The position numbers and the translations under genes were made by a program. A stretch of DNA of 64,000 bases from Gemmatimonadota bacterium. GTDB lineage: Bacteria; Latescibacterota; UBA2968; GCA-2709665. The stretch covers positions 124,001-188,000 of the forward strand of contig JAPPFJ010000008.1 of assembly GCA_028877215.1 (NCBI GenBank). The letters are read 5' to 3'. This document shows, piece by piece, positions 3,906-64,000 of the stretch. How positions within the stretch are numbered: the first letter of the stretch is position 1; each line of letters starts with the position of its first letter. The notes under the pieces were generated by a model. The model was given only the letters and a program-made list of their open reading frames with translations, had not been told where the DNA came from and did not search any database.

Positions 3906-6080
3906 TCACCGGGAACCGTTTCCCGTGGTGACGTATATGGGGCTGGTCCAGGCCTTGGCGCCGTCGGTCTGGGTCACCCGCACCCAGTAGGGATGGCAGC
4001 CGTCCTGCAGTCCGGACTCCCGGAAGGTGAAGCCGGCTTCGTAGCCGACGCCGTCGGGCGCCTGCTCGAAGACGACTGCAATGTCAATTCCGCCCGCGGG
4101 AATCCGTACAGGCCCTTTCGCAATTTCTCCGAGTGTAACGGCGTGAGAGACGACGTCCGTTCTAAAGTCGATGGTCGCCCGAGGCGTAGCGTCGACGGTG
4201 AGTATGACGCCGTCGGCGTCTCCGGTGGTTACGGATTTCCAGGTCACGGAATGGTCTGTAACGGACTGTATACCCTCCGCAGCCGAATCGAACGCATATC
4301 CTTCGGCGCGGCGTATGCGGCCCTGCTCGAGGGTGAGGCCGCCGTCCCAGCGAACCAGGCGGTTGCGCGCGCGAATTCTCTGGCCCGACCAGGCAATTCG
4401 TATTTTGTCGTCAGCGCGGGGTATGGTCGCGGGAAAACTGTGTACGAGCTTCAGACCTCTGAATACGTCAATGCGTTCGATGGGTGCGGTTCCGATCACG
4501 TCAACGGCAATTTCGGGCGGATGCAGTGCCGTCAGGTCCGAGCCCATCGGGTGTCCGTCGGCGGCGACGTTCACGAGGATTCGCTGGCCCGTGGTGCCAT
4601 AGCAGCGACGGTTTTTCAGCGCTTCCCAAAGCCCGCGCCGGCTGAGTTCGGGAGCAAAGACGCATGTAAGCCCTCCGTACACCCCGAAGGAGCCGCTGCC
4701 GGGGTACGCGGCGCCCGGCCTGCCCTTGTGGTCGTCGCTTCCGGCGATGAAGCCCACCCGATAGCCGTTTTCGAGGGCCCACCTGAGGAACCATTCGAAT
4801 TCGCCCCACTCGGAGTAGACTTCCACCAGGCGTTCGAAGTCGGGATCGTGCCAGTCCAGATTCGCGTAGCGGCCGCCAACGTGCGGCACCAGCAGGACGT
4901 CTCTTCCCTTCATCGCCCTGTAAAGATCGGTTACGTGCAGGCAATCCGCGCGGTCGTCGGATTTGTCCGGAATCAGCACGTGGCTGGAGCGGTGCAGGGG
5001 GCCGTTGTCTCCTGGATAGTAGACGTTGTGATCGCCGCCGACAGGGGTATTTCCGGACCATTCGTAACCGACGAAGGCGACGAACCTGCCGGGGTCGTTC
5101 TGCACGTTCGCCTGGTGTTTGATTTCTTCCCAGACGGATTCGGTAATCTGAAAATCATTACCCTGATGTCCAGCGAAATCGACAAAGGCGGATTCCCGGG
5201 CGAAGCAAAAGTACGAGGACACCGGGTTTGTTCCCACGGTTTCTTCGCTCTGTCCGTGCAGGTCGCCCCAGTACGGACGGTTTCCTGTCCCGGATTCGAC
5301 GCACCGCAGCGGGTTGCTTTTCGCTTTCAGGCCCAGAGACCGGTCCTCGGTTCCGATGCGAAAAACACCGCGTGCAGGCGCGACGACGTCGTCAAACCGG
5401 CGCGCTCCGCGGTCCTCCGGGCGAAAACGGAATGTCTCGGGGAGCCCCGTGAGCCCGCCGGCATCCACCGTGACTTCGCCAGTGTAGTCACGGCAGGGGT
5501 TTCCCCACAGGTCCTCGGCCTTGATCCCCGCCCAGGCGGATTCGCCCGGCGCAGATTCGGAAGCGCAGACCGCGACAAGCTTGTGGGGGTCGCCGCTCAC
5601 GATGGGCACCGAGGGCGACGGGACCTCCTCGTAGACCCAGGTTCCGCACCAGTCGACCGCCACGCGGAACTCGAACCGGTCCTTGCAGAAGGTCTGCGCG
5701 CGGATCCCGGGAGAGCCGCCGGAGGTGTCTCCCAGTGTGAGGGTGACCGTGTCGCCTTCGGAAAGAGAGTCGTCGTAGACGTCGATGGTGACACACAGGC
5801 GCCACGGTCGCACGTAGCGCTGTCTTTCAAAAGCGGGTCGAAGCGAAGCGGCTCCCGTGGTGTATACGGAAGCGTATCCCGGCGCGTCGGGTTCGGCGAA
5901 CTGCGGCGCCTGCCAATCGCTTACGTCGCGCCATGCGATCTTTATGACGCCGCCGTCATCCACGCCGTATCTGCCGGCGTGATAGATGATGCGCCAGGTG
6001 CCGGTGGCCCCGGCCGTGACCGGTCCCGCGGGGTCTATTTCCGCCCACCCGTAACGTTCGCGAATTTTCGCGTCGCCCAT
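3906..6080 (-). CDS. DUF3604 domain protein (PHP-like metal-dependent hydrolase)
   Basis: A 724-aa protein matching the DUF3604 family, which carries a PHP-like metal-binding fold of unknown substrate. Putative metal-ligand motifs are WGDLHGQSE at 271-279, VPHVGG at about 398-403 and GSDDHKG at 447-453. About 265 residues of beta-rich sequence precede the catalytic part and a further beta-rich tail of roughly 200 residues follows it. No signal peptide is seen. The start is ATG at 6080, with only a weak purine stretch as ribosome site. The gene is separated from the downstream ggt-like gene, which has its own promoter. Homologues are common in marine and soil heterotrophs next to sugar-acid catabolism genes. 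Function is unknown. Confidence 0.82.
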   Translation of the reverse strand: MGDAKIRERYGWAEIDPAGPVTAGATGTWRIIYHAGRYGVDDGGVIKIAWRDVSDWQAPQFAEPDAPGYASVYTTGAASLRPAFERQRYVRPWRLCVTIDVYDDSLSEGDTVTLTLGDTSGGSPGIRAQTFCKDRFEFRVAVDWCGTWVYEEVPSPSVPIVSGDPHKLVAVCASESAPGESAWAGIKAEDLWGNPCRDYTGEVTVDAGGLTGLPETFRFRPEDRGARRFDDVVAPARGVFRIGTEDRSLGLKAKSNPLRCVESGTGNRPYWGDLHGQSEETVGTNPVSSYFCFARESAFVDFAGHQGNDFQITESVWEEIKHQANVQNDPGRFVAFVGYEWSGNTPVGGDHNVYYPGDNGPLHRSSHVLIPDKSDDRADCLHVTDLYRAMKGRDVLLVPHVGGRYANLDWHDPDFERLVEVYSEWGEFEWFLRWALENGYRVGFIAGSDDHKGRPGAAYPGSGSFGVYGGLTCVFAPELSRRGLWEALKNRRCYGTTGQRILVNVAADGHPMGSDLTALHPPEIAVDVIGTAPIERIDVFRGLKLVHSFPATIPRADDKIRIAWSGQRIRARNRLVRWDGGLTLEQGRIRRAEGYAFDSAAEGIQSVTDHSVTWKSVTTGDADGVILTVDATPRATIDFRTDVVSHAVTLGEIAKGPVRIPAGGIDIAVVFEQAPDGVGYEAGFTFRESGLQDGCHPYWVRVTQTDGAKAWTSPIYVTTGNGSR

Positions 6081-58111: not shown

Positions 58112-58320
58112 CTATTCATCGTCATAGTTTACAAATCCGTGTCTTTCCATCAACGTCTTCAGCAACTGACGGTTGCGTTTTTGTTGTTCCATCGTCCTGA
58201 AAACCGTTGCAATGCGTGAACCTTTGGCCGCCCGGACACGCCTTGCAGGGTAGTGGAATGGTGATCTCGTGGACGTTACGTGAATGGCCACAGATAAAAT
58301 CCACGCGACACGTGAAGTGA
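58112..58320 (-). pseudogene. Frameshifted zinc-ribbon-like small gene
   Basis: On the minus strand one frame reads HFTCRVDFICGHSRNVHEI, ending PLPCKAC, a plausible C-x5-C/CxxC metal site. After a one-base shift the next frame continues RAAKGSRIATVFRTMEQQ and NRQLLKTLMERHGFVNYDDE to a stop at 58112. The single uninterrupted frame instead ends in unlikely sequence. It appears to lack its own start because the 5' end meets the divergent gene at 58357. A decayed zinc-ribbon gene is the best reading; a sequencing error at the shift is possible. Confidence 0.35.
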
Positions 58321-58356
58321 CTTAGAGTTCCGCCAGGATTACCGGGAGAGAAAGCC

Positions 58357-59178
58357 ATGATACTCGAAAACGAAACGATAGCAAATTATACGTTTCCGTT
58401 GACAAGGCCGGATGTCACAATACTCGAAAGTTCTGAGAAGATAAAAGAAGTCGATTGCCCAGAACTGCAGTGGTGGTTCGCCATTCCGAAACTGGGCGAA
58501 CACTGCCGTTGGGCAGCCTATGAGTCCGGAACGTTGGCGTTAACCGCCGTCGTCGAGATTGTGTCCACAGTTCCTGCGACGATCCGGGACATCGACTGCG
58601 TCGAACTCCGACTGAAAGAATGGTCGGCTCGGGACGATTGGCCGATGGGCTTTAACCCTGGTCTCATGTACGCACTGCTGGACGAAAAGCAGGCGAGGTG
58701 GCTTTCCGTCGTCAAGACTCGAGATGGAAGACGCGTTTTTGAGAACGTGGGGGACAAATGGTTTGAGGAGAACTGGGGGGGAACGATGAGGCGCCGAATT
58801 GTTGATGACGGACGCTACCGGCGTCAACCCGATGGATCGTATAAAACTGGCAAAGGTAAAGGGATAGGTGCAGGCACTTACGATGTCACGATCGGCGGCA
58901 ATACGTTCTGTTGTCTCCGTGTTTTGGACCCCGACCTTTGTACACCGAATGGCGGCGAGCTTGTGGAAGTATACATTGAACGCGGAGGGCGGACCGTGTT
59001 TTTTAGACGGTACGATGGGAGGTTTTTCCGTGACACGGACCTGATCGTCAAGTATCCGGACAATCGCCGAATCGTCATCAACAACACGGTGTATGTGCAC
59101 CATGACTGCAGCGGGCGAGCTCACGACACAATCACGCAATACGCACTAAAACCTGCTCGACCGGAGGAATGCCAGTAA
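58357..59178 (+). CDS. Stand-alone copy of the sigma-fused C-terminal domain
   Basis: A 273-aa soluble protein of unknown family. It is clearly homologous to the C-terminal 270 residues of the next gene: QWWFAIPKLGEH matches AWWFVKPEVGDR, GAGTYDVTIGGNTFCCLRVLD matches GAGVFDVHVGGRQFTCLRVFD, RGGRTVFFRRYDG matches RAGRTVLFRRYNG, and RRIVINNTVYVHH matches DRIVIDGLTYVHY. The ATG at 58357 has GGGAG eight bases upstream. It ends within a few bases of the sigma-domain gene and is surely cotranscribed. It may compete with, or bind the same ligand as, the sigma-fused copy. Confidence 0.72.
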   Translation: MILENETIANYTFPLTRPDVTILESSEKIKEVDCPELQWWFAIPKLGEHCRWAAYESGTLALTAVVEIVSTVPATIRDIDCVELRLKEWSARDDWPMGFNPGLMYALLDEKQARWLSVVKTRDGRRVFENVGDKWFEENWGGTMRRRIVDDGRYRRQPDGSYKTGKGKGIGAGTYDVTIGGNTFCCLRVLDPDLCTPNGGELVEVYIERGGRTVFFRRYDGRFFRDTDLIVKYPDNRRIVINNTVYVHHDCSGRAHDTITQYALKPARPEECQ

Positions 59179-59219
59179 CTGCATTTGAAGTGCATAGCAC
59201 AAAGTACAGTGGTTTTCGA

Positions 59220-60620
59220 ATGACAAATTTAAACGACCAACAATTGGCGAAGCAGGTGCGGGAGGGCAGCGAGTCGGCTTTCGTGACCCTCATCCGGCGC
59301 TACGAGCGCGTGATTGCTGCGTTGATCCGTTCACGGATCGGTTCCGGAGAACAGGTGCAGGACGTGATGCAGGAAACCCTGGTCCATGCCTGGCGCGGCC
59401 TGCGCCGGGATACGCCTCGCAACGTACGTCCGTGGCTGCTGCAGGTGGCACGCAACCGCTGCCGCGATTACTTCAGGTCGCCCCATCGCCGCGAACTGTA
59501 CGTGGGGAGCGAAGTCCTGACGCCGCTGGTCAACCGCAGCGGACTCGCGCAGTCACGGGAGCGGGAAGCCGCTACGGCAATCCTGGAAGCCATGGACGAA
59601 GTGCCCGAACGCGAACGCGCCGCCCTGAAGGCGTTTTATCTCGACGGTCTGAGCATCGCCGAAATTGCCGCCCGCCACCGCAGTCCCGCCGGCACGGTCA
59701 AACGCCGTCTTTCGCACGGCCGAGACCACATCCGGAGGACATTGGGAATCACCCCTACGAAGAGGAAGATCGACATGAAACCAAGACAACAAGACTTTCC
59801 GCGACAGCGCCCGGAGATTCGAATTCACCCCAGCGCGGAGAAATCATTACGAATCGATTTCACGGAAATGGCATGGTGGTTCGTAAAGCCGGAAGTCGGC
59901 GACCGGGTCGGCTTTGGTTATTACGACGGCGAAAAGGACGGCTGTGCGCCCTGGCGTCTGACCGAAACGACATGGCTGACCGCCGGCCGGCCGGCGGTGA
60001 TCCACGGACGACCCTGTGTCGAGGTGGATGTCGAGGAGGTGGAGGTCGAGAAGATGAGGTTCCGGAAGAAGCCTCTTGAGGAAAGGAGCCGCATTAAACG
60101 GGTATGGGGATGTTTGTCTGATGACGAGGTGGAGTGGATCGCCGTGGAAAGGGAAGAGGCCGACGGCGTGAGAGAACTGGAGACCTTTCTGGACGATGGA
60201 TTCCACGACGACTGGTGGGGTTCACGGCGCATCGTCGAAGACCGCGGATGTTTGTCCCAACTGGCCGATGGCTCCTGGGTCAGAGGGCCGGATGCCCCCG
60301 CATTTACAGGCGCTGGCGTGTTCGACGTCCACGTAGGCGGGCGTCAGTTCACCTGTTTGCGGGTATTTGACCTGGAGAAAAACGCCACCGAGCGTGACTG
60401 CTTGGTCGTGGCATATATCACGCGCGCGGGACGCACGGTGCTGTTCCGGCGATACAACGGAAGCCGCTGGGGCAAGAGCGACGCCCCGCCGCACAACTGG
60501 GGCGAAGCGATGACCTGGGAAGAGGAGCTGCCCGCAAACGACCGCATCGTCATCGACGGGCTGACTTACGTGCACTATTACGACATCCTGTCGGCGGCAG
60601 CCTGCGGCCTCGTCGATTGA
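59220..60620 (+). CDS. ECF-type sigma factor fused to an unrecognised C-terminal domain
   Basis: A 466-aa protein, counted from the ATG at 59220. An upstream ATG at 59169 overlaps the previous gene by 10 bp but sits one base from its GGAGG. Residues about 1-170 are an ECF sigma factor: region 2 LIRRYERVIAALIRSRIG, VQDVMQETLVHAWRGL and VRPWLLQVARNRCRDYFR; region 4 VPERERAALKAFYLDGLS and IAEIAARHRSPAGTVKRRL. From about 190 to the end lies a domain shared with the upstream gene, rich in Trp/Asp/Gly and beta strands, not SnoaL-like. No anti-sigma gene is adjacent, so the C-terminal domain is the likely regulator. Confidence 0.82.
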   Translation: MTNLNDQQLAKQVREGSESAFVTLIRRYERVIAALIRSRIGSGEQVQDVMQETLVHAWRGLRRDTPRNVRPWLLQVARNRCRDYFRSPHRRELYVGSEVLTPLVNRSGLAQSREREAATAILEAMDEVPERERAALKAFYLDGLSIAEIAARHRSPAGTVKRRLSHGRDHIRRTLGITPTKRKIDMKPRQQDFPRQRPEIRIHPSAEKSLRIDFTEMAWWFVKPEVGDRVGFGYYDGEKDGCAPWRLTETTWLTAGRPAVIHGRPCVEVDVEEVEVEKMRFRKKPLEERSRIKRVWGCLSDDEVEWIAVEREEADGVRELETFLDDGFHDDWWGSRRIVEDRGCLSQLADGSWVRGPDAPAFTGAGVFDVHVGGRQFTCLRVFDLEKNATERDCLVVAYITRAGRTVLFRRYNGSRWGKSDAPPHNWGEAMTWEEELPANDRIVIDGLTYVHYYDILSAAACGLVD

Positions 60621-61912: not shown

Positions 61913-61987
61913 TGGTGACCCCGAGGGGAGTCGAACCCCCGTTGCCGGGTTGAAAACCCGGTGTCCTAACCACTGAACGACGGGGTC
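61913..61987 (-). tRNA. tRNA-Glu (anticodon TTC)
   Basis: On the minus strand the acceptor GACCCCG pairs with CGGGGTC and is followed by A and an encoded CCA. The D-arm is GTTCAGTGGTTAGGAC, the anticodon stem CCGGG/CCCGG has the loop TTTTCAA (anticodon TTC), and the T-arm contains GGTTCGACTCC. A TTGACA promoter lies just upstream. Confidence 0.96.
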
Positions 61988-62221: not shown

Positions 62222-62298
62222 GGGCGATTAGCTCAGATGGTTAGAGCGCTGGTTTCACATACCAGAGGTCACTGGTTCGAGTCCAGTATCGCCCACCA
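62222..62298 (+). tRNA. tRNA-Val (anticodon CAC)
   Basis: The acceptor GGGCGAT pairs with ATCGCCC, then A and an encoded CCA. The D-arm is AGCTCAGATGGTTAGAGC, the anticodon stem CTGGT/ACCAG has the loop TTCACAT (anticodon CAC), and the T-arm is CTGGTTCGAGTCCAG. Confidence 0.96.
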
Positions 62299-63740: not shown

Positions 63741-64000
63741 AGGCAAGCGGGCCGGATGGCCGCGCCCCTGCCAGTCCGCTGGTATGGGCGAGGAAAGTCC
63801 GAGCTCCACAGGGCAGGATGCTGGGTAACTCCCAGGCGGGGCAACCCGAAGGAAAGTGCCACAGAGAACAGACCGCCAGCGGGCGAAACCACGGTTTCGT
63901 TGCGGGCAAGGGTGAAACGGCGGGGTAAGAGCCCACCGCGCTCCCGGAGACGGGAGCGGCACGGTAAACCCCATCCGGAGCAAGGCCAAATAGGAGCGGA
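63741..64000 (+). ncRNA. rnpB: RNase P RNA (class A), 5' part
   Basis: The bacterial RNase P RNA core is recognisable: GAGGAAAGTCCGAGCTCC, ACAGGGCAGGATGCTGGGTAACTCCCAGG as the P3-P4 region, GAAAGTGCCACAGAGAACAGACCGCC, and AAGGGTGAAACGGCGGGGTAAGAGCCCACCGC. The 3' part, including the end of P4 and P1, runs past the window. The exact 5' end is approximate. An ORF overlapping it is not real. Confidence 0.95.

Follow-up and report, generated by a model that had tools for sequence, protein, structure and literature searches.

An ECF sigma factor fused to an undescribed domain, with a predicted promoter of its own and a predicted second product

Here we describe an ECF sigma factor gene, located in a 64,000-nucleotide stretch of bacterial DNA (referred to below as the window), that is fused to a C-terminal domain and stands behind a promoter motif shared with its relatives in other phyla. 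We put at roughly 60% the probability that this locus is a self-controlled, ECF41-like sigma switch with the domain as its output. The features of the locus are listed in Table 1.

Table 1. Features of the sigma fusion locus, in window coordinates
Feature	Position	Strand	Basis
Predicted autogenous ECF promoter, GAACCTT-N14-CGCC	58218..58242 (-35 58218-58224; -10 58239-58242)	+	Motif match
Segment with free gene between promoter and fusion, ~958 bp	58258..59215	+	DNA alignments, window and G022 only
Free domain gene, 273 aa	58357..59178	+	Domain comparison, G022 counterpart, dN/dS, tree grouping
Alternative fusion start GGAGGAATG, 483-aa form	59169..59171 (form 59169-60620)	+	In-frame ATG read from sequence
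ECF sigma and domain fusion, 466 aa	59220..60620	+	Orthologues in G020-G022, G046, G047, G049
Sigma region 2, residues 24-87	59289..59480	+	PF04542, E 4.2e-14
Sigma region 4, residues 120-170	59577..59729	+	PF08281, E 2.1e-12
Predicted internal ribosome-binding site and in-frame ATG, AGAGGAAG...ATG (ATG 59775)	59761..59777	+	Junction statistics
C-terminal domain / predicted internal-start product, 281 aa	59775..60617	+	No Pfam/NCBIfam match; AlphaFold2 model

The fusion protein carries sigma regions 2 and 4 only, without region 3, and scores above the TIGR02937 cutoff, as members of the ECF family do. Its C-terminal half, and the whole of the free protein encoded just upstream, matched nothing in Pfam or NCBIfam, which bears out the preliminary description of a full sigma half joined to a domain that could not be placed in any known family. 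The same description had recognised the domain in the upstream gene; free and fused copies align over about 260 residues with 31% identity (E 1e-29), and the motifs quoted for the pair fall within this alignment. No third copy of the domain was found in the window's genome, and the window proteins are free of membrane segments. It was also correct that no anti-sigma gene adjoins the pair: downstream lies a convergent gene without a Pfam match, and upstream a divergent one whose Pfam matches are all sub-threshold. Farther downstream of the fusion lie two tRNA genes (61916-61987 and 62222-62295) and the start of an RNase P RNA (63744-64000).

Scanning 84,980 species genomes with a profile yielded 66 loci. 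They lie in Latescibacterota, the group to which we assign the window's own metagenome-assembled genome, and in Gammaproteobacteria, Poribacteria, Bacillus niameyensis, Lederbergia, Avimonas, Armatimonadota, and Brachybacterium. Whole-genome searches located full fusions also in genomes related to Avimonas at the level of class, a class taken here to be Clostridia. Metagenome assemblies are the source of most loci. Sigma fusions, which span four phyla, make up most of the family; they are joined by free genes, found mainly in Poribacteria, and by a split operon of two Bacillus-like species. In the split operons of Bacillus niameyensis and Lederbergia (L055, L056), sigma factor and domain are encoded by separate, overlapping genes. 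According to the whole-genome searches the domain is present in 45 of 85 Poribacterial genomes, nearly always as a free gene, the two Poribacterial fusions being L054 and L147. Wider sampling near Bacillus (300 genomes) and Brachybacterium (198 genomes) returned no more members. A phage or plasmid origin was rejected, with zero relatives among phages, plasmids, and viral contigs. More distant relatives of the domain occur in two loci (L026:1432-3667 of G003 and L149:3418-5059 of G914), each of which combines an ECF sigma factor, a zf-HC2-like gene, and the domain relative in one cluster; the domain similarity was upheld with a model built excluding both, and the zinc-finger match of L149 falls just under the Pfam cutoff.

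The predicted promoter GAACCTT-N14-CGCC is the sole match in the window (0.09 expected) and the sole full-motif match in the 5.35-Mb genome. Within the genus GTGAACCTTT...CGCCTTGCAGG has been kept and the flanks have diverged. Across all phyla found, GAACCTT-N14-CGYC precedes fusions and split sigma genes with a spacer that is always 14 bp, providing the shared promoter motif that the preliminary description had proposed looking for. It lies 25-102 bp upstream of the sigma match at 31 distinct loci, with CGAC at two further, Clostridial loci and -35 variants (GAACTTT, GAACCAG, GAACCGA) at a few loci in Firmicutes, the split Bacillus niameyensis/Lederbergia form reading GAACCAG-N14-CGTC; of random stretches of 270 bp, 0.7% contain the strict motif. 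The motif stands before all complete fusions with an available upstream region, and before the split sigma gene as well. Loci without it directly ahead are three from which region 2 has been deleted (G048, G043, G042), one at a contig edge (L048), and one G022 fusion, where the motif stands ahead of the free gene instead. As a prediction from sequence, this is an autogenous promoter of the AAC...CGT type by which ECF family members are recognised. A near-match in G047 (L012:4044-4120) comprises a promoter copy followed by the fusion gene's first codons and is a duplication relic. At most of the Clostridial loci (L151-L158 and L092) a conserved TATATAAGTGAAACCGGTTT follows the -10 element, and the palindrome GAAACCGGTTTC may be an operator.

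Genomes of the genus contain the full motif once, except G022, which has it twice, each copy being a fusion promoter. With two mismatches allowed, seven of seven Latescibacterota genomes had perfect copies at the fusion only, and a loose form of the motif occurred 113 times in 21 genomes vs 147 times in the reversed control, with no excess over background. A wider regulon was thus rejected, the strict, loose, and two-mismatch searches having given only the locus itself above background. Because, in the genomes searched, the full motif is absent elsewhere and the loose motif is at background, the main target of the sigma factor is predicted to be its own unit. These searches covered a single spacing and a tight -35, so that promoters with other spacers or a divergent -10 would escape them and the sigma factor may have further targets.

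In its behaviour, the nearest known system is ECF41 (SigJ, Ecf41Bli), which combines a SnoaL-like C-terminal extension with a single target operon and has no anti-sigma factor (PMC3426412). The window's fusion resembles it in that its C-terminal domain is fused and soluble, an anti-sigma gene is lacking, the promoter motif is conserved and its own, and there is essentially one target unit, here a predicted one. The domain, however, is about 260 residues long with no detectable SnoaL match, and its best fold matches are other proteins; the ECF41 promoter is TGTCACA-n16-CGTC rather than GAACCTT-N14-CGYC; and the fusions described here have a predicted internal start for the free domain. Since domain and promoter differ, the window's family is not ECF41. 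Even so, extensions coupled to a single target operon were already known from ECF41, and what had been put forward as a new regulatory layout is therefore better regarded as a variant than as a new class. The same precedent, together with the narrow spacing and -35 used in our searches, speaks for an ECF41-type sensor sigma factor with an ordinary small regulon, in which the domain does no more than regulate the sigma factor, a few target genes fit the motif poorly, and the internal start and free gene supply extra inhibitor. We consider this unlikely, given that both full and loose motif searches left only the locus itself above background and that the neighbouring genes vary by lineage, whereas the ECF41 neighbour is conserved as a carboxymuconolactone decarboxylase, oxidoreductase, or epimerase. 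Among the loci listed, of whose neighbours a minority were searched by family, no neighbour is common to all fusion lineages, which led us to reject a conserved neighbour as the target. A gene of about 280 aa, presumably phytanoyl-CoA-dioxygenase-like from a reading by eye, occurs near Poribacterial free genes only (23 loci, among them L057 and L064) and may reflect genome kinship.

The gene pair of the window has a counterpart in G022, a genome of the same genus, in which both genes are adjacent (86% and 82% identity) and the DNA is collinear through the segment that holds the free gene. In G021 (L008), window positions 58132-58257 correspond to 5365-5488 and window 59216 onward to 5496 onward; G020 is likewise arranged, so that neither genome has the free gene and in both the fusion comes directly after the promoter. 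In a domain tree made by a quick method, the window's free gene and its G022 counterpart cluster with the free genes of Poribacteria and are separated from the fused domains of Latescibacterota, among which the G021 fusion is nearest to the window's. Both this tree and the absence of the segment from G021 and G020 led us to reject an origin of the free gene by tandem duplication of the fused domain; given the closeness of the G021 fusion, that genome may once have had the segment and lost it, or an exchange may account for the difference. A second free-gene copy in G022 has no promoter and lies at a distance of about 30 kb from the second fusion there. The two G022 free copies (L009:4463-5287 and L028:1501-2325) differ with a dS of 0.05 after residue 60 and 0.51 before it, a pattern that looks like gene conversion.

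The gap in G021 and G020, the grouping with Poribacterial genes, and the promoterless distant copy in G022 are what one would see if the free gene were an unrelated passenger, mobile or transferred from the Poribacterial free-gene group and with no bearing on the sigma factor. That interpretation strikes us as improbable. The free gene belongs to the domain family of its fused partner; the alternative fusion start overlaps the free gene's 3' end, in G022 as in the window, positioned in frame for what is likely, to judge from the sequence, to be translational coupling; and with a dN/dS of 0.12-0.27 for both genes of the pair (0.18 for the free gene against G022), free gene and fusion are under purifying selection. 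Poribacterium L054, moreover, has an independent pair of fused and free genes with a promoter before each. Free genes that adjoin a fusion carry the promoter (window, G022, L054), and lone Poribacterial free genes do not. The expectation that sigma fusion and free domain occur as neighbours thus holds for the window, G022, and, independently, L054; the side-by-side layout is nevertheless rare, being found in two of the four genomes of the genus.

The combination of fused and free domain appears to be general by another route, namely a predicted internal start at the junction of sigma factor and domain, so that the layout envisaged by the preliminary description would be rare as a pair of neighbouring genes and present within nearly all fusions. 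An in-frame junction Met with a Shine-Dalgarno sequence is found in 30 of 31 fusions. The match is at least 5 nt long at 25/30 junction sites vs 23/203 other in-frame Met codons and 32/403 out-of-frame ATGs, where the better site was taken in linkers with two Met, a slight bias towards the junction; the window's own site, with an AGGA core and a 4-nt match, is weaker than those of its relatives. Arg codons in the linker are AGG or AGA in 45 of 53 cases vs 231 of 1390 elsewhere. The pattern was first noticed in the linkers and then counted on those sequences, and because the fusions are related (11 groups at 60% identity), Fisher values overstate independence. The sole fusion without an internal Met, L054, is accompanied by a separate free gene behind a promoter copy of its own. 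On these sequence statistics, the free domain should also be made from most fusions. It is unlikely that the junction ATG and Shine-Dalgarno sequence are an unused relic of an ancestral two-gene operon, an origin suggested by the similar geometry of the split Bacillus/Lederbergia genes, where the domain start overlaps the sigma stop, since the site has been retained across phyla despite domain identities of only ~25-35%, with AGG/AGA specifically in the linker, and persists in loci that have lost region 2, including the G048-G043 reading frame under selection.

Three such loci (L014, L015, and L017, of G048, G043, and G042) lack both sigma region 2 and the promoter; the sigma-4/domain reading frame is open in G048 and G043, and that of G042 is shortened further. 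Between G048 and G043 the dN/dS of the remaining frame is 0.16, from which the domain seems to be useful without an active sigma factor. This is consistent with the lone free genes of Poribacteria, which have neither a neighbouring sigma gene nor a promoter and point to a role of the domain beyond the control of an adjacent sigma factor. Elsewhere dN/dS ranges from 0.07 to 0.28, alike for the sigma and domain parts.

The domain itself was rejected as a known family by Pfam, NCBIfam, and PDB sequence searches, and in no member scanned did the extension give a Pfam match; the preliminary description was right to call it unrecognised. An AlphaFold2 model of the window's C-terminal domain has a pLDDT of 80, and a family model of the free protein, from a 55-sequence alignment, is nearly all beta (pLDDT 92.3, pTM 0.90). 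The best Foldseek matches in the PDB are the YmcC-like half-barrels 3fzx and 4fvs (E 1.1e-3, probability 0.99), and a viral fold library returned nothing at E <= 0.001. TM-scores against YmcC-like and LolA-like half-barrels (3fzx, 4fvs, LolA) are 0.30-0.37, with an rmsd of 12-16 A, and so fall short of the 0.5 beyond which a YmcC-/LolA-like fold would be indicated, as it would be by a match at the sequence level. These models offer a hint, as a remote fold lead, of a ligand-binding half-barrel. YmcC- and LolA-like proteins are described as exported or as lipoproteins, unlike the soluble domain proposed here.

In the self-controlled switch that we favour, the soluble beta-sheet domain would act as a sensor, with an intracellular ligand deciding whether the sigma factor is inhibited or licensed. 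On signal, the sigma factor would transcribe its own gene from the conserved GAACCTT-N14-CGYC promoter, and the same mRNA would yield more of the fusion and, from the junction start, the domain alone. The genomes tested contain no other strong copy of the promoter, and the main output would therefore be the domain itself, which would bind the ligand and, free or fused, turn the sigma factor off again. The arrangement in the window and G022 includes a further domain gene, only distantly related; standing between promoter and fusion, it would be co-transcribed as part of the same unit, and its product could serve as a decoy or second sensor.

Control of the sigma factor by a C-terminal extension is also known from ECF238/CorE, which is metal-responsive, and from ECF42 with its TPR extension (PMC8999054), whereas the domain described here has no match to TPR or to any known extension domain. 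Classic operons of an ECF sigma factor with a zf-HC2 anti-sigma factor offer another parallel: the split Bacillus domain gene occupies the anti-sigma position, overlapping the sigma gene, and the distant relatives L026 and L149 cluster with a zf-HC2-like gene, but the domain has neither a zf-HC2 match nor a membrane segment. ECF262, ECF264, and ECF288 are listed as extension groups with Firmicutes models (PMC8999054); they resemble the present family in joining an ECF sigma factor to an extension in Firmicutes, and may already include the Clostridial fusions.

How ECF sigma factors without an anti-sigma partner are controlled is still poorly understood (PMC8999054, PMC8103513), and the family described here would bring to this group a sensory domain not described before and a layout with two products. 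That very dissimilar hosts share a near-identical promoter suggests that the locus is a self-contained switch. More tentatively, these may be cross-phylum two-product sigma genes, in which one autogenous promoter and mRNA give rise to fusion and free sensor with no target but the gene itself, so that sensor, factor, and effector would be united in one self-inducing gene. The relatives in Bacillus and Lederbergia, with genome records that belong to named strains, make the switch directly testable.
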